Shown piece after piece: positions 55,051 to 62,156 of a stretch of DNA of 64,000 bases. This DNA is from Bradyrhizobium diazoefficiens (lineage in GTDB: Bacteria > Pseudomonadota > Alphaproteobacteria > Rhizobiales > Xanthobacteraceae). Numbering within the stretch: the stretch's first letter is position 1; each line of letters begins with the position of its first letter. The DNA lies in assembly GCF_016616425.1 (NCBI RefSeq), contig NZ_CP067101.1, positions 62,001-126,000 on the forward strand, read 5' to 3'. The position numbers and the translations under genes are program-made. Below the pieces are notes generated by a model that was not told where the DNA came from, made no database searches, and saw only the letters and a list, made by a program, of their open reading frames with translations.

Positions 55051-55926
55051 CTACTGCGTCTTCGCCACCCTTGGCGGCTGGGCTGTGGTGATGAAGCTGG
55101 TGGCTTCCAGCATGGCCGGCCCGAGCGGCGTCGGCACTTTCAGCCAGAACGGGACCAGGATGCGCGTGCCGGCGATGGGGGCGAGGGCGATCTCGATGTT
55201 ACGCTGGGCGGCGAGATATTTGATCACGGGGCGGTCGGGGATGTAGCCGGACACCGGCACGAAATAGAGCGCGCAGACCACGACCGGACCACGATAGCCC
55301 TTCTCCGCCTTCACGGTCTCCATGCGCTTGAAATCGAGCTTGAGGTCGTAGCGCATGCGGCCGTCGAACACCGGGGCCGAGCTGTGGCAGGCCTCCGGCG
55401 AGACGGGATCGCCAGTGCCGGGCACGCGCAGCAGCGAGGCCGTCATCGGATCCCAGACGCCGCGGCGATGCGCGTCGGTGACGACGATGCGGTCCGGATC
55501 GACCGGCGGCTCCGGCGCGATGCTGAATTCCTTCACATTACCCTTGTCGAGGATGATGTGGATCTGCTCGGTCTTCTTCGAGGTGGTGGTGGACGCCTGG
55601 TAGGCGGTCGCAACCAGCGCGCCGTTGACGACGCGGCCTTGCGAGGCGCCGGTGCCCGACCCGCCCGCGAACGTCTTCAGAAGGCCCGTGGTGCCGCCGG
55701 AGGCCGCCGCCGCGAACACGTCCTCACCGATCTCGATGTTCCAGGCACCCTTGCCGACGGGAATGCCGGCCAGCGAAGCCTCGTACTGCGCCTCGAGCTT
55801 GCCCTGCGCCGCGACAGGCTCGGCGCCCCACGCCATGACAAGCCCGCAAAGGGGTGCGAAGGCCAGTCGGCCGGCGGACCGCAACCGGGGCGTCAAGCGG
55901 AGCGATGGGAGCACGAAACAATCCAA
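55051..55926 (-). CDS. DUF3108 domain-containing exported protein
   Basis: About 291 residues with a signal-like N-terminus (LAFAPLCGLVMAWGAEPVAAQ) and a beta-rich DUF3108 domain. YEASLAGIPVGKGAWNIEI near residue 50 and DPMTASLLRVPG in the middle are the recognisable parts. No ATG precedes the signal; TTG at 55926 or GTG at 55914 are the candidate starts. Function unknown; outer-membrane or periplasmic roles are usual guesses. It is divergent from rpmB. Confidence 0.78.
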   Translation of the reverse strand: MDCFVLPSLRLTPRLRSAGRLAFAPLCGLVMAWGAEPVAAQGKLEAQYEASLAGIPVGKGAWNIEIGEDVFAAAASGGTTGLLKTFAGGSGTGASQGRVVNGALVATAYQASTTTSKKTEQIHIILDKGNVKEFSIAPEPPVDPDRIVVTDAHRRGVWDPMTASLLRVPGTGDPVSPEACHSSAPVFDGRMRYDLKLDFKRMETVKAEKGYRGPVVVCALYFVPVSGYIPDRPVIKYLAAQRNIEIALAPIAGTRILVPFWLKVPTPLGPAMLEATSFITTAQPPRVAKTQ

Positions 55927-56101
55927 TCAGGGCGCGATGCGCCGTTACTTAAGTCAAAAACCGCGGCAAACAATGCGTCCGGGCGTATCGAACGGCGGAA
56001 CTCCACTGCACTCTTCGGCGGCGAATACGCCCTTTATGTGATGGTAAGGCGCGACAAACATTGCCGTTTTGGTGATGGGGAGGTGTGGCCGCGGGCTCCG
56101 A

Positions 56102-56256
56102 ACCTCTCCCGCTTGCGGGAGAGGTCGCGCAAAGCGCGGGAGAGGGCTTTCTCCTCTGGAGGACACCATCCGATCTGGAGGACACCATCCGAGACAACGT
56201 CTGTCCCCCAGAAGAAAGAGCCCTCTCCCCAACCCTCCCCCGCGCGCGGGGGAGGG
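56102..56256. repeat. Palindromic intergenic repeat, family E, with internal tandem duplication
   Basis: CCTCTCCCGCTTGCGGGAGAGG and GCGCGGGAGAGGGCTTTCTC on the left face GAAAGAGCCCTCTCCC and CCCCCGCGCGCGGGGGAGGG on the right. In the centre the 19 bases TCTGGAGGACACCATCCGA occur twice in tandem without change (56155-56173 and 56174-56192). Confidence 0.8.
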
Positions 56257-56299
56257 AGCGCACCACCCGGGCGGCGGCCCTAAAAGACCGCCCAAAACC

Positions 56300-56328
56300 T
56301 TGACGCGGGGCCCCTTCCCCCCTATACG
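56300..56328 (+). promoter_or_regulatory. Sigma70-type promoter of rpmB
   Basis: TTGACG (56300-56305) and TATACG (56323-56328) are 17 bases apart, leaving a 5' leader of about 85 bases before the ATG at 56422. Confidence 0.65.
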
Positions 56329-56421
56329 TCCGCCCGCTCCCTGCAAGGACGAAAGAATTTGCCCCCGTGGCGCCCCGAATGGCGGCCGCAAATCGTTGGG
56401 GGATAGAAGAGGATTTCTACC

Positions 56422-56730
56422 ATGTCTCGCCGCTGCGAACTGACGGCCAAGGGCCCCCTCGTCGGCCACAAGGTCAGCCACTCCAACATCAAGACCAAGC
56501 GCCGCTTCCTGCCGAACCTCGTCAACGTGACGTTCATCAGCGAAGCCCTCGAGCGCAACGTGCGCCTGCGCGTCTCGACCAATGCGGTCAAGAGCGTCGA
56601 CCACAATGGCGGCCTCGATGCCTTCCTGCTCAAGGCCAGCGCCGACGTCCTCTCCCCGCGCGCCCTCGAGCTGAAGCGCGCCATCCAGAAGAAGGTCGGC
56701 GACACCCAGCCGGCGAAGAAGGCGAGCTGA
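56422..56730 (+). CDS. rpmB: 50S ribosomal protein L28
   Basis: A 102-residue ribosomal protein of the alphaproteobacterial long form. [38 protein letters not shown] covers the conserved N-terminal half, with the typical [11 protein letters not shown]. It is preceded by a strong promoter and followed by an intrinsic terminator, so it is a single-gene transcript. Confidence 0.97.
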
Positions 56731-56804
56731 GAGATTTACCGTTAGGGCGGGGGCTAAGTTGCGTCGCGTGGCGTAGGCTTAGCCAGTAGCGTTCTGCGTT
56801 TGCG

Positions 56805-56837
56805 GCCGGATCGGAAGATCCGGCTGTTTTTGTTTTG
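56805..56837 (+). terminator. Intrinsic terminator of rpmB
   Basis: An 8-bp stem GCCGGATC/GATCCGGC with a GGAA loop is followed by TGTTTTTGTTTTG. It ends 18 bases before the 3' end of the converging SIR2 gene. Confidence 0.85.
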
Positions 56838-56855
56838 TGAGTGGCCGATTCTTAT

Positions 56856-59800
56856 TCACCGGGAGTCCCAGATGCGCTTGAGCTCGATCCACTTGCTATT
56901 CGCCTTAAGCGCTGGATCCGCTTTCTCAATTCGCGATAGTGCGTCTCCCATACCATAGGGCCACTTGCGCGCATCGTCCGGCAAAGCCGCACTTAGCAAT
57001 CTTAACACCTCGCCTGGATAACGATCGAAAAGACCCACCTCTGATGAATTCAGAATGGGCAGATGCATGTGGTTCTCTTCAACAGCGGTGATGAGCGGAA
57101 CGATTCTGTCGACGAATTGAGGAAATTTCTCATTCTGAGCGAATGCCAAGTTACAAAGGCGAGATGATACACGAGCCGTTCTCGCTGCAAGTTGCCTCGG
57201 CCACACAGTATCTAACAAGACGAGGGCGTCGTCAGCCCAGGTGCCGTCCTCGGTCGACCATCTCTCCAAGCACCAAATTATCTGTGATCTCAAATCATCG
57301 TCGGTTGCAAGAAGAACCGAGCGTAGCTCGCTATCCGTAACGCGCCTTTCGCCGTTATCGAGCTTGCTCTTCCATCCGGCCAACAACATTGCCGCCAGTT
57401 GCTCCGCATGTTCTCGACGATCAGTCGAACCTTTTTTAGCGAGACTAAGTAGCGCCGGCTTAAGAGCCAAATAGAGGTTCTGCTGGGGCATCTTGCCACC
57501 CCAAAAGAATCCTGCCCAGAACGCGCTCGCCTCATCACCGCCGGCCCGGAGAGCATTCAACAAGTTAGATTCCGTCCATGAGGGATCGGCATGAAAAAAC
57601 CAGATTAGATGATGACTCAAGAGGGTTATCGAGTGGAGATACGGATCACCCTTCAATTTCAGTAGCTCACTCGCACGATCGACCCACCACGCTGGCAATT
57701 TTCCGGACAGTTTCTTCGCATCAAGTTCGGGGTCATTCAAAATTGCCTGGCTGAGACTTCCGGCAGGGGAATTGAGAGCTTCAGTCGCCCAATCTCTCGC
57801 TCGATCACTCGATCGAACCAATCCAGACCGCCCTGCTTCCTCGCTCGTTCTCAATGCATCCAACACTCTGTACCACAACGTCTCAAATACTGATTTATTG
57901 TTCATGAGCAAACCTTTGCTCACGGTTTGCATCCAGCTACTAACTGGACGGACAATCTTCACTAACTCTATTTGAGGGAGCTTTGATAAACGCCTTGCAA
58001 TCAATGTGATCAGCCTAAGCCCGTCTTGAGAACGCCGCTCAGCACTCAGAAATGATCGCCACGCCCAAGGATAATATCGCGCTTGTCTTTCGGCGATGGT
58101 TATTGCGCTAAGAGCACGAACGGGCTTTGCCGCAACCAATCCAGCGAATGGATCTCTTTGAACGAAGAACTCCGCCCGACGTCCAGCCAATTCCGCAGCT
58201 TTCTCCAATACCATCGCAAGGGGAACACCCTCCTGCAACTCATTGCTGCTAATATCAGTGCGAACCCAGCCAGTCTGGATACCCGCAGGTCGAATTCCAG
58301 TTCTGACATATTCGTCAGTCCATTGCGGGGCGAGGGATCTCAGCTTTATCAGCTCAGCATCCAAATCGGCGTCAAACTTACATCCGTTTGCTTGCAACCA
58401 AGATATACGCGTGAGGATAAGTGAGGATCGATTCTCAATAAATTCATTCTTGCTCTCGTCCTTCCAACGCGGCCTTCCTTTGAGCAATCGGCGCACGAGT
58501 GTTCGTCGGCGCAATGGAGCTAAACCGTCCCATCGACGCGAGAGGCTTAGCATTAAGTCCGCTTGATGACCGCTGTCCCAGAAGTCCGTGCTGCTCAGGC
58601 GAACAAAGAAACTAGCGGCTTCAGCTGAAGAGAAAATCCGATTATCTCCGTGTGCCCATATCAAAAGCCTAACAAATATCGGACCGTCAGATCTCCAACT
58701 CCCTGCTTCAAGACGGGCTGCCTTAGCGTCACTTTTCGCAAGGCGACAGAAGAGGCTCGTTACCAGATGGACCAGTGCTGAAATACCTTGCCGCGAGGGA
58801 ATCTCTCCGTCTCTAGGAACTCCGATCGAGTCGAAGTTATAGAGACCATACCCTCCTATCTCCTCTTCAAGAGCTGCACCGAGCTCAAGCTTCTTACATA
58901 AGCCTCTCAATACATGTCGAACTTTGTCGTCCGGAATAATGACTGGCTCGGTGCTATGAGGATATTCAACATCCAGGTGAATAAGCTCATCGATAGTGAC
59001 CTCATCGGAATCATTTGGGGGACGCGGGCTACCGGAAAATGCTTGGCTTACGCTGATGTAAGGAGTGTGGAGATCAACAAACCGCCTGGTTATGCTTTCT
59101 GTCCAACCCTCTCGCTTCGCGGTGCCTAGCAACGAAAACCACTCTTGATAGAAATCACTTCCGAGATTCTGCCAAAATTCGAAAAGGTAGCGCCAAGCTG
59201 AGCTGACAGTATGCTGCCTCTCATCAAAAGACTGAGTATGCCTGATTTGCTGCTGCAACGAAGGATGAATGCCTGCTTGCTTTGCGGCCCACCACACCGA
59301 CACGGGCTGGTCGGAAACCCGGGCAACCCAATTGCCCAGCCAAGAAAGGCGCGCTGTTAACTGGGGAGAATTGACGGCGTAATATCCCCTAAACCCAGCA
59401 AAGACATCTTCGCGCGCGTCCTCCTGATCTCTTCGTGTAAGAGCGAAACAACTCCAAGCATCCTGGGGTATATCTCTCTTGGCGAAAGTTTCCTCTGGAC
59501 TGATCCTCGCTGGAACTGCATCGGCATCGAGCCCGTAGGCGTCGAAAGGATCGAAATAATCCCCTCGCTCTAAGATGTTACCTGTACGCCCTGGGCTCGC
59601 GTATCTGATTAGAGGGTCGAAGCAACAAAGCCACGTCGCCGACGGTGGAGGATCTGCAGTCCCGAAGCGCTTTGCGCCTTCGAGAGTAGAAACGATGTGC
59701 GCGATTTGCCCTCTCTCATGAGGCAGAAGTTTCTCTGGTCCTCCACGAGCCTGAGCAATCGTCTGCTTGTACCATCCGTCTGGATCTCTTGCTCTCCCAG

Positions 59801-60665
59801 CCCATGCCGCGAGCGTGCTCCACAATGCTGCGTGATCACTCGACTCGGGATAGGATACAACTCGAACCCCTTTCTGCGTCCAGCGCGCTTGCCCTTCTTC
59901 CAATGAGCCTGCATGAAACGCGTAAGCTTCTGTTGAGTTTCCCGTTCTCCGACTTAGCCCTTCTAGCAAGTATTGCATGGGCGGATCGTCGGCCGCGTAT
60001 CCAATGAAGACAACGACGTATTTATCCAGAACGGCTCTGATAAAATCAGTTGCCCAACGCTCCGACAAGTATGCGCGTCCAAATTCGGCGCTTGAGATTA
60101 TCAGCCCATCGCCAGCAGCGTCGACGTAATCATCTGTTACGTAGCCATGAAGATGGACTATTCCTTCGAACTCATCACTGCGCAGTGGATCAGGGAGTCG
60201 CGGAGGCTTCCATCTGGGCAAGAGGGGATCACAAGCTTCGAACAAAAGGTCAAAGTTCGTTGTTACGAGGCGAATTTGACCACTTGGCCCCCGCGCTAGG
60301 TCAAGCAGGCAGCGGTGCGCAGAGAGGTCAACGTCCGCGGCTGGTCGAAGAGAGGCTGCGATGGCGTTATAGATGTCGTTGGTTGAGAACTCGCGTTCCA
60401 TCAAACTGAAGACTCGGTCTGCCGAAACCAGACTACCGAGCCCCTTAATGACAGGCAGGGTTGGAAAGGCAGCTATTAATTCCCGTATCGTGCTATCGGG
60501 AGAAATCGCTAACTTGTCTGCCACAGCATGTGTCAGGCCAAGAAAGTCGGCTAGATTTGCTCGAGCCCTTGAAACGCCAGCCCCGCAAAAGAAGACAACT
60601 CGACCTTGATCGCGTGCAGTGAGCAAGTCATCAGGAATTGAAGGACCGTCGGGCAGAAAGCGCAA
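56856..60665 (-). CDS. Large SIR2-domain protein, candidate antiphage NADase (DSR-like)
   Basis: A 1269-residue protein. Residues 20-300 form a SIR2 domain: VVFFCGAGVSRAR (NAD-binding GAGxS, 28-32), TTNFDLL (Asn137), HLHGYV (catalytic-type His173) and VVFIGYAADDPPMQYLL (222-234). The zinc-binding cysteines of deacetylases are absent, as in NAD-hydrolysing defence sirtuins. The remaining 950 residues are mostly helical with no recognised domain. The layout matches DSR1/DSR2, where SIR2 plus a long C-terminal sensor drains NAD+ on infection. The start is a TTG at 60665; no ATG is available. G+C is clearly below that of the flanks (27/60 in 60001-60060 against 40/60 in 61381-61440), suggesting transfer. 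Confidence 0.82.
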   Translation of the reverse strand: MRFLPDGPSIPDDLLTARDQGRVVFFCGAGVSRARANLADFLGLTHAVADKLAISPDSTIRELIAAFPTLPVIKGLGSLVSADRVFSLMEREFSTNDIYNAIAASLRPAADVDLSAHRCLLDLARGPSGQIRLVTTNFDLLFEACDPLLPRWKPPRLPDPLRSDEFEGIVHLHGYVTDDYVDAAGDGLIISSAEFGRAYLSERWATDFIRAVLDKYVVVFIGYAADDPPMQYLLEGLSRRTGNSTEAYAFHAGSLEEGQARWTQKGVRVVSYPESSDHAALWSTLAAWAGRARDPDGWYKQTIAQARGGPEKLLPHERGQIAHIVSTLEGAKRFGTADPPPSATWLCCFDPLIRYASPGRTGNILERGDYFDPFDAYGLDADAVPARISPEETFAKRDIPQDAWSCFALTRRDQEDAREDVFAGFRGYYAVNSPQLTARLSWLGNWVARVSDQPVSVWWAAKQAGIHPSLQQQIRHTQSFDERQHTVSSAWRYLFEFWQNLGSDFYQEWFSLLGTAKREGWTESITRRFVDLHTPYISVSQAFSGSPRPPNDSDEVTIDELIHLDVEYPHSTEPVIIPDDKVRHVLRGLCKKLELGAALEEEIGGYGLYNFDSIGVPRDGEIPSRQGISALVHLVTSLFCRLAKSDAKAARLEAGSWRSDGPIFVRLLIWAHGDNRIFSSAEAASFFVRLSSTDFWDSGHQADLMLSLSRRWDGLAPLRRRTLVRRLLKGRPRWKDESKNEFIENRSSLILTRISWLQANGCKFDADLDAELIKLRSLAPQWTDEYVRTGIRPAGIQTGWVRTDISSNELQEGVPLAMVLEKAAELAGRRAEFFVQRDPFAGLVAAKPVRALSAITIAERQARYYPWAWRSFLSAERRSQDGLRLITLIARRLSKLPQIELVKIVRPVSSWMQTVSKGLLMNNKSVFETLWYRVLDALRTSEEAGRSGLVRSSDRARDWATEALNSPAGSLSQAILNDPELDAKKLSGKLPAWWVDRASELLKLKGDPYLHSITLLSHHLIWFFHADPSWTESNLLNALRAGGDEASAFWAGFFWGGKMPQQNLYLALKPALLSLAKKGSTDRREHAEQLAAMLLAGWKSKLDNGERRVTDSELRSVLLATDDDLRSQIIWCLERWSTEDGTWADDALVLLDTVWPRQLAARTARVSSRLCNLAFAQNEKFPQFVDRIVPLITAVEENHMHLPILNSSEVGLFDRYPGEVLRLLSAALPDDARKWPYGMGDALSRIEKADPALKANSKWIELKRIWDSR

Positions 60666-60784
60666 ATCTTTGCTCGCATTGGTTGAATCTGGTCAAAATA
60701 AGCGATTCGCTTGGCACGTCTATTCTCCATCAGTCGGAGCATGCGATTTTCCTGAGATGCAGCTCACCTGTCCCCAAATTCCGA

Positions 60785-60790
60785 TATACT
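60785..60790 (+). promoter_or_regulatory. Possible -10 element of the DUF2235 gene
   Basis: TATACT lies 32 bases before the ATG at 60822. No good -35 hexamer is seen at the proper distance, so this is tentative. Confidence 0.3.
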
Positions 60791-60821
60791 CGCCCCGGTA
60801 GCATCCCCGAGGCGCATCCCC

Positions 60822-62156
60822 ATGGACCCCGCGCACACCACCGTGCCCTCCCCGAAAAACCTCGTCATCTGCTGTGACGGCACCGGCAACGAGATCAGCG
60901 AGAACATCTCCAATGTCCTGAAGCTCTATCGCTGCCTGCGCAAGACCGAGCGGACGCAGCCGCGGCAGATGGTGTTCTACGATCCCGGGGTCGGCACGGT
61001 GACGGAGCCGACGACGTGGCACCGGCTCAAGGCTAACGTCAATCTCGTGCTGGGGCTCGCCACCGGCTACGGGTTAGACGCCAACGTGCTCTCGGCCTAT
61101 TGCTTCCTGGTTCAGCATTACGCGCCCGGCGACAGGATCTACCTGTTCGGTTTTTCGCGCGGCGCTTACACCGTCCGCGTGCTGGCGGGGCTGATCCACA
61201 AGATCGGCCTGATCTCGCCGGAGCAGGCCAACCTCGCAGGCTCGGGCCTCGTCGCCTACAAGCAATATTCCGGCAGCGGGCGCGGCAATGACGTCGAGGA
61301 TCTCAGCGACGTCTCCTTCGACGAGAGCGGGCCGCTGCCGAAGGACGAATTCGACCTCGCCGCCCAGTTCGCGCGCATCACCTCGACGCGCTGGCCGACC
61401 ATCCATTTCATCGGCGTCTGGGACACGGTGGCGAGCGTGATCGTGCCGCGGCGCGACAATTTGTTCTTCCTGTTCAGCCTGGAGGAGCTCGCCTTCACGC
61501 GGCGCAACCCCAGCGTCAGGACGTTCCGGCAGGCGATCGCGATCGACGAGCGGCGCCGCATGTTCCGCCTGAACAAGTACGAGGAGCCGCAGGAGTTCTG
61601 GAGCAATCGCTACGTGCCCGACGAGAAGAAGCTGCCGCAGGACATTTTGCAGGTGTGGTTCGCCGGCGTGCACGGCGACGTCGGCGGCGGCTATCCGGAG
61701 GCGGAAAGCGGGGATTCGAAATATCCGCTGATCTGGATGATCGCGGAGGCGGAGAAAGCGGGGCTGAACTTCAATCCGGCGACCGTGAAGCAGCTCGCCT
61801 TCGGCGTCCAGCGCAAGAACTCGCCGTTCAAATACGTCGAGCCGGCCTACATGGGCAAGACGGGCGTGCTGCACGATTCGATGACGGCGGGCTGGCGCCT
61901 GCTGGAATTCTTTCCGAAGCGCGCGACGTACAAGGAGTGGCCGGAGCGGAAGGTGTTTTTCGGCTTCTACATCCCCGATGGCGAGCCGCGCATCATTCCC
62001 GAAGGCGCGCATGTGCATGAGAGCGTGCTGAAGCGGATGGGGAGCGAGCCGGATTACCGGCCGGTGAACATGCCGAAGGACTATTTGACGGTGCCGATGC
62101 CGGTGCCGCCGGGGATGGAGCTGGCGGACTCGCTACCACCCTCCCCTGGAGGGTAA
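60822..62156 (+). CDS. DUF2235 (Tle1-like) alpha/beta hydrolase
   Basis: A 444-residue hydrolase. The nucleophile is in GFSRGAYTVRVL (Ser112), an Asp follows in FIGVWDTVAS (Asp201), and the His is in WFAGVHGDVGGGYPE (His284). These match the DUF2235/T6SS phospholipase (Tle1) family, including the N-terminal NLVICCDGTGN. No type VI secretion, VgrG or immunity gene is adjacent, so a housekeeping lipase role is as likely as an effector role. Base composition is like the rest of the chromosome, unlike the divergent SIR2 gene 156 bases away. Confidence 0.85.
   Translation: MDPAHTTVPSPKNLVICCDGTGNEISENISNVLKLYRCLRKTERTQPRQMVFYDPGVGTVTEPTTWHRLKANVNLVLGLATGYGLDANVLSAYCFLVQHYAPGDRIYLFGFSRGAYTVRVLAGLIHKIGLISPEQANLAGSGLVAYKQYSGSGRGNDVEDLSDVSFDESGPLPKDEFDLAAQFARITSTRWPTIHFIGVWDTVASVIVPRRDNLFFLFSLEELAFTRRNPSVRTFRQAIAIDERRRMFRLNKYEEPQEFWSNRYVPDEKKLPQDILQVWFAGVHGDVGGGYPEAESGDSKYPLIWMIAEAEKAGLNFNPATVKQLAFGVQRKNSPFKYVEPAYMGKTGVLHDSMTAGWRLLEFFPKRATYKEWPERKVFFGFYIPDGEPRIIPEGAHVHESVLKRMGSEPDYRPVNMPKDYLTVPMPVPPGMELADSLPPSPGG

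Follow-up and report, generated by a model that had tools for sequence, protein, structure and literature searches.

A 64,000-nucleotide stretch of Bradyrhizobium diazoefficiens DNA (contig NZ_CP067101.1, positions 62,001 to 126,000; hereafter the window, whose numbering is used throughout) carries a gene for a 1269-residue SIR2 protein. Sequence comparison indicates that this is probably a single-gene anti-phage hydrolase of nicotinamide adenine dinucleotide (NAD+), that is, an NADase, of the Dsr1 type. It belongs to a sister group of Dsr1, and its gene would have come in by horizontal transfer, as a cassette open to exchange in a slot between core genes.

Seen in the sequences themselves are the homology to Dsr1, the conservation of the catalytic residues, the foreign composition and purifying selection of the gene, and a slot filled with defense cargo; we infer NADase activity, a phage trigger and exchange of the cassette through its conserved flanks. 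The N-terminal SIR2_2 domain would hydrolyze NAD+ by means of N137 and H173, the long C-terminal region would bind a phage component made during infection and thereby switch on the NADase, and the loss of NAD+ would stop phage growth. Bacillus subtilis DSR2, a protein of 1005 residues with catalytic N133 and H171, is activated by a phage tail tube protein, and its N133A/H171A double mutant is an inactive control (PMC10973363; this and the other papers cited by PMC number are represented by excerpts). No trigger for Dsr1 is named in the excerpts of the literature found, PMC10973363 and PMC10952713 among it. The gene would have arrived horizontally in a slot bounded by the rpmB terminator on one side and the promoter region of a DUF2235 gene on the other, where the genus would swap its defense systems by exchange through the conserved flanks.

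The gene and its catalytic residues

The gene and its parts are located as follows.

56856..60665, minus strand: Dsr1-type SIR2 gene, 1269 amino acids, TTG start (matches to Dsr1 profiles)
59766..60665, minus strand: domain SIR2_2, spanning residues 1 to roughly 300 (Pfam match at 133-269, invariant residues, lowest rate of nonsynonymous substitution, dN, at 0.040)
60255-60257, minus strand: codon of N137
60147-60149, minus strand: codon of H173
56859..59765, minus strand: C-terminal region and presumed sensor, residues 301-1269 (collinearity with the C-terminus of Dsr1)

A Pfam scan of the full protein places SIR2_2 at residues 133-269 (E 1.3e-13), and the outer limit of the domain near residue 300 was set by analogy with DSR2. 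An earlier sequence-only reading had described a SIR2 protein with NADase residues, and the motifs it named are all in place: GAGVS at 28-32, TTNFD at 135-139 with N137, and HLHG at 171-174 with H173. N137, D139 and H173 are invariant in 26/26 aligned full-length relatives, the alignment having taken in 26 of 31 sequences after exclusion of five broken or partial copies. The window protein therefore has the SIR2_2 domain with GAGxS, TTNxD and catalytic His that mark Dsr1. That reading was also right that the zinc cysteines are lacking: there is no CxxC pair in the entire protein, so it does not have the zinc-cysteine signature of a SIR2 deacetylase, and residues 1-300 contain just three cysteines, C27, C119 and C145.

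The TTG start is level with the start of most homologs, which usually use ATG; the copy in genome G027, 82% identical to the window protein, likewise begins with TTG. Against this copy, the ratio of nonsynonymous to synonymous substitution rates (dN/dS) is 0.04 for residues 1-300 and 0.06-0.21 elsewhere. Because the ratio stays at 0.04-0.21 across all eight segments compared, the open reading frame (ORF) is a real gene under purifying selection.

Relationship to Dsr1 and DSR2

The window protein matches the NCBIfam Dsr1 model (NF041818) with an E value of 1.7e-115 and 387.1 bits, and the PADLOC Dsr1 model at E 6.5e-85. Two separate stretches of the Dsr1 profile are matched, positions 2-354 (E 3.9e-62) and 504-1261 (E 7.5e-50), and an hhalign comparison of a clade profile (14 members) with a canonical Dsr1 profile (8 proteins) aligns residues 1-1263 (E 2e-89, probability 100). 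The protein is thus like Dsr1 in being the product of a single gene with an N-terminal SIR2_2 domain and the same catalytic residues, in having the length of the Dsr1 profiles (1263 and 1275), and in being collinear with them from residue 1 to 1263, with a C-terminal region homologous to that of Dsr1 (profile positions 504-1261). The sequence-only reading had found the C-terminus unlike anything recognized, which the matches at E 7.5e-50 and E 2e-89 overturn; for the same reason, we rejected the C-terminus as a new domain. It had also called the protein longer than DSR2, which is correct (1269 versus 1005 residues), yet this length is simply that of Dsr1 (profile 1263).

The protein differs from Dsr1 in sequence, being only 24-25% identical to eight canonical Dsr1-type proteins. 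Its 387.1 bits fall below the curated NCBIfam equivalog cut-off of 1400 bits, and we therefore file it with a Dsr1-type sister group and not as a Dsr1 equivalog. In a tree of 26 proteins, it belongs to a group of 18 that is split at 100/100 from a group of eight, which includes three proteins annotated dsr1 (the midpoint root served for drawing only). Because of the score below the cut-off and this split, the window protein is a divergent Dsr1-type variant outside the curated equivalog, in keeping with the diverged subtype that had been suspected. The sister group would be a second, well-separated branch of Dsr1. Such a branch is of value because a Protein Data Bank (PDB) sequence search with canonical Dsr1 found no Dsr1 structure; the same search with the window protein gave chance matches only.

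The comparison with DSR2 is less favorable. Like B. subtilis DSR2, the window protein combines a SIR2 NADase domain with a long C-terminal region in the sensor position, and the Asn and His are similarly placed (PMC10973363); their spacing, said earlier to be close to that of DSR2, differs from it by two residues (36 in the window protein and 38 in DSR2). In contrast, no PADLOC Dsr2 model matches the window protein at E up to 1, and in a profile comparison with three PADLOC Dsr2-type proteins only residues 21-230 align (probability 92.7). These three are distant stand-ins for DSR2, one tested meeting the B. subtilis DSR2 PDB chains only in the SIR2 domain, and within that limit there is no C-terminal homology to Dsr2 by sequence; a DSR2-like C-terminal part was accordingly rejected. 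At E up to 1, a PDB search with the clade profile returned weak matches to four SIR2 chains, none of them from DSR2. The proposal that the C-terminal part fits the sensor region of DSR1 and DSR2 is borne out by sequence for DSR1, with the Dsr1 match at E 7.5e-50, but not for DSR2. Dsr1, not DSR2, is the closer model for the window protein.

The two parts of the protein vary at different rates. In the pairs window/G027 and G014/G084, dN is lowest in residues 1-300 and highest at 621-750, and the ten nearest relatives after G027 are 43-68% identical in the segments of residues 1-300 and 22-48% identical beyond residue 480. This is what a conserved effector joined to a fast-changing sensor would look like, the C-terminal region being the presumed sensor.

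Relatives are also found on mobile DNA. Sixty plasmid records match, the best at 40% identity; among the 30 of these that were listed, 24 are annotated only as 'SIR2 family protein' and four as dsr1. IMG/VR viral contigs have Dsr1-type genes at 19 loci (L136-L154), of which L136-L138 are 38-39% identical to the window protein; phage records apart from IMG/VR gave no tblastn match to the window protein. Of the five viral loci whose neighborhoods were looked over, L137 and L141 have an upstream ORF that, judged by eye, resembles a phage-type integrase. A 46%-identical relative (L003) comes from a metagenome contig whose title is Klebsiella pneumoniae; this contig may be mis-binned.

The cassette and its edges

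The gene occupies a low-GC insert between two core genes, whose names are taken from the annotation of plasmid matches.

56422..56730, plus strand: rpmB, core gene on the left flank, for 50S ribosomal protein L28 (query match, plasmid annotation)
56804..56835, plus strand: perfect stem-loop with a T run, intrinsic terminator-like, left cassette edge (homology breakpoint)
56831..60771, no strand assigned: low-GC cassette of about 3.9 kb with one gene (homology gap against the G030 slot)
60772..60821, plus strand: conserved promoter-like block (TATACT), right cassette edge (resumption of homology)
60822..62156, plus strand: DUF2235 gene, right core flank (long match in surveyed genomes)

A query consisting of rpmB and its terminator matches 182/190 genomes of the genus. 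The edges were set by comparison with the near-empty slot of genome G030, in which rpmB and the DUF2235 gene are 420 bp apart: homology to this slot stops at 56830 and resumes at 60772. The left blastn match stops at one and the same T-run base in 18/24 other slot loci, and the sequences diverge after it. The pattern of stem-loop plus T run occurs once in the window, with 0 occurrences expected. On the right, 19 loci have a long match; homology to G030 resumes upstream of the DUF2235 gene in 7/19, including the window, and within the first DUF2235 codons in the remaining 12/19. The TATACT block before the DUF2235 gene is presumably its promoter. One ORF nearly fills the 3.9-kb cassette, consistent with Dsr1 and with the single gene of the defense-associated sirtuin kind that had been proposed.

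The cassette stands out in composition and in divergence. Windows of 2 kb inside it have a GC content of 0.51-0.55, compared with about 0.65 around it, and GC at third codon positions is 0.51 in the Dsr1-type gene versus 0.85-0.94 in five neighbors; the host genome is a single contig of 7.14 Mb. Between the window genome (G000) and G027, the synonymous rate dS is 1.06 for the Dsr1-type gene and 0.16-0.53 for five flanking genes, which suggests that the cassette has a history separate from its flanks.

An Rfam scan of 55800-61000 found no RNA family. Before rpmB, at about 56088-56279, lie two short dispersed repeats of about 75 bp each, with many copies in this genome and its relatives; most copies are 80-98% identical.

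A defense hotspot between rpmB and the DUF2235 gene

The slot was surveyed in two sets of Bradyrhizobium genomes. Survey 1 took 20 slots not chosen for content from 35 other genomes matched, leaving out the Dsr1-type carriers G014 and G027, and survey 2 took a second set of 20. The DUF2235 gene bounds the slot by a long match in 38/40 surveyed genomes, the copy in G010 being 32% identical, and where measurable (38/40) the slot is 0.4-10.8 kb in size. In survey 1, slots with a downstream DUF2235 gene span 3.3-10.8 kb in 17 genomes and only 420 bp in G030, and in G020 and G016 a full DUF2235 copy does not lie within the stretch read. Survey 2 slots measure 0.8-10.4 kb, and 17/20 contain a low-GC ORF of at least 130 residues. 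The spacing from the DUF2235 gene to OYE also varies (1.2-4.2 kb), less than the slot.

From survey 1 we scanned 30 slot ORFs in 18 genomes, picked as low-GC or large with higher-GC ORFs left out; G030, which has no slot ORFs, and G010 were not among the 18. A PADLOC model is matched at E 1e-10 or better by 23/30 ORFs in 14/18 genomes. The assigned cargo is as follows, all by PADLOC.

Gabija: G029 and G023; GajA-like gene: G016
IetAS: G034, G031 and G019
Lamassu type: G022 and G007, truncated in G005
Reverse transcriptase-Toprim (RT-Toprim) gene: G002
ThsA-like SIR2 gene: G017
Restriction-modification: G018
Hachiman-like helicase: G011
AAA ATPase like NsnB/PDC-M55A: G009

As a control, 82 ORFs on the far side of the DUF2235 gene give no match to any PADLOC model at E 1e-10; these ORFs, of at least 150 residues and at most six per locus from 17/20 survey 1 loci, are largely orthologous to one another and some may be antisense. 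In survey 2, where matches were counted by family and not per genome, 43 low-GC slot ORFs match 240 PADLOC models, the 25 listed including HamB, Drt8-type reverse transcriptases and IetA; their Pfam families, among the 25 of 37 listed, include HamA, TIR, the Cap4 nuclease and methylases. Pfam scans of the 30 survey 1 ORFs show no integrase or transposase family, and none is among the best 25 of 37 families of survey 2, the other slot ORFs being unscanned.

Constant core genes thus flank an anti-phage cargo that varies across genomes, and the interval from the rpmB terminator to the DUF2235 gene is a defense hotspot of the genus that holds many different systems, a context on which the sequence-only reading did not touch. 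Core defense hotspots are known in P. aeruginosa, and how common they are in other clades is left open in the excerpt of PMC10250203. The slot resembles P. aeruginosa cDHS1 and cDHS2 in its variable low-GC anti-phage cargo, its fixed core flanks and the absence of a single type of mobile element; it differs in genus and flanks, and in being small and cut sharply at a terminator. Neither the rpmB-DUF2235 slot nor a Bradyrhizobium defense hotspot is named in the titles and abstract beginnings of the open-licence PMC literature. The slot adds a further example to a known type of locus, and it supplies a rule for the genus: to find defense genes, look from the rpmB terminator up to the DUF2235 gene.

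A slot common to the whole family was rejected. We drew 20 genomes of other genera of the family from 106 that match outside the genus, mostly by high identity and few contigs, and none has a DUF2235 gene in the approximately 12 kb downstream of rpmB. In the genomes sampled, the slot in the form described here is thus a feature of the genus. In 17 of the 20, GC does not fall under 0.55 in the first kb after rpmB. The three exceptions all belong to genus g50 (L193, L194 and L199), in which low GC begins right after rpmB without a DUF2235 gene, at 0.46-0.56 over 5 kb in L193 and over 1-2 kb in L194 and L199; this is perhaps a similar slot.

The presence of a ThsA-like SIR2 gene in the slot of G017 bears on the alternative that survives best, namely that the window protein makes a signal or modifies a target, by ThsA-like signaling or protein ADP-ribosylation, instead of hydrolyzing NAD+ in bulk, while still serving in defense. 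Signaling is described for some defense SIR2 proteins (ThsA; PMC10952713). We nevertheless consider this unlikely, since the single ORF leaves no space in the cassette for a partner gene and the closest relatives are Dsr1-type.

Dsr1-type genes in the genus

Some match to the window protein is present in 26/195 genomes of the genus, and seven of the 195 have near-full-length relatives at identities of at least 31% (G000, the window itself, and G027, G100, G093, G014, G084 and G144). Five of these seven genes adjoin rpmB directly; in G093, rpmB is about 80 kb from the Dsr1-type gene, and in G100 they are carried by separate contigs. At the slot, the genes of G000 and G027 are convergent with rpmB, whereas those of G014, G084 and G144 are co-directional with it and encode proteins about 30% identical to the window protein. 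Because two lineages are thus present in two orientations, the Dsr1-type family has probably entered the slot more than once. Canonical Dsr1 copies also occur in the genus (G049, G088, G112 and G135), with rpmB on another contig.

This distribution argues against an NAD+ hydrolase for housekeeping or stress that plays no part against phage, which we regard as very unlikely. Nothing was found that supports a housekeeping or stress function directly; the listings and excerpts of the literature found mention neither the sister group nor, accordingly, a phage phenotype for it. The gene is patchy: 195 genomes yield only seven near-full-length relatives, and two of these are broken. It is foreign in composition and placed in a defense-rich slot, and it has relatives on plasmids and viral contigs. 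A mobile-element passenger that is decayed or inactive might be suspected from the broken relatives (two stops in G144, two frames in G093, an early stop in the Burkholderia copy L005) and from the remnant of about 90 residues in G141, but it is just as improbable for the window copy, which is intact, keeps its catalytic residues and shows dN/dS of 0.04-0.21 against G027, in a slot whose Pfam-scanned ORFs, as delimited above, include no integrase or transposase.

Strength of the Dsr1-type reading

Several points weigh against a horizontally acquired Dsr1-type NADase in a defense slot. The score under the curated cut-off means that the trigger, and even the outcome, may differ from those of Dsr1. 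Abortive infection should not be assumed for the window gene because, in the excerpt of a review, DSR1 inhibits phage without cell death (PMC10952713). The base composition of the cassette differs from that of its flanks and may inflate its dS. The slot is not exclusively a defense locus because 4/18 scanned slots (G026, G021, G008 and G020) lack a PADLOC match at 1e-10. Finally, none of the 40 slots surveyed blind to content holds a Dsr1-type gene, so that Dsr1 is a rare slot cargo, and the five slot-borne cases came from a search with the window protein itself.

A more specific form of this reading places the window gene in a Dsr1-type family with a phage trigger of its own and makes the slot an insulated, genus-wide swap site that works by recombination in the flanks without mobility genes, leaving 5' pieces of the DUF2235 gene as footprints. 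It is tentative, and we would place it slightly short of an even chance.

Fragments and other genes in the slot

The 5' end of the DUF2235 gene is also present as fragments, all within codons 1-81, alongside the intact copy at 14/40 surveyed loci and in G027. The loci are L053, L117, L118, L119, L123, L127, L132 and L134 in the first set and L155, L157, L161, L163, L164, L170 and L172 in survey 2; at L134, there is a fragment with no intact copy in reach. Where positioned (first set), the fragments sit between rpmB and the intact copy. They look like footprints of repeated exchange or duplication.

The four scanned slots with genes unmatched by PADLOC at 1e-10 are candidates for new systems. 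Two slot ORFs, L125:13926-15197 (423 residues) and L116:11709-12767 (352 residues), match neither Pfam (E 0.001) nor PADLOC (E 1e-5) and are candidates for new defense genes. Other slot genes include a 738-residue ORF with a weak NACHT match (L130:530-2746), an RmuC-family gene (L122:13322-14314) and two long ORFs that were scanned in bulk only, L172:9490-13509 (1339 residues) and L170:9381-12683 (1100 residues).

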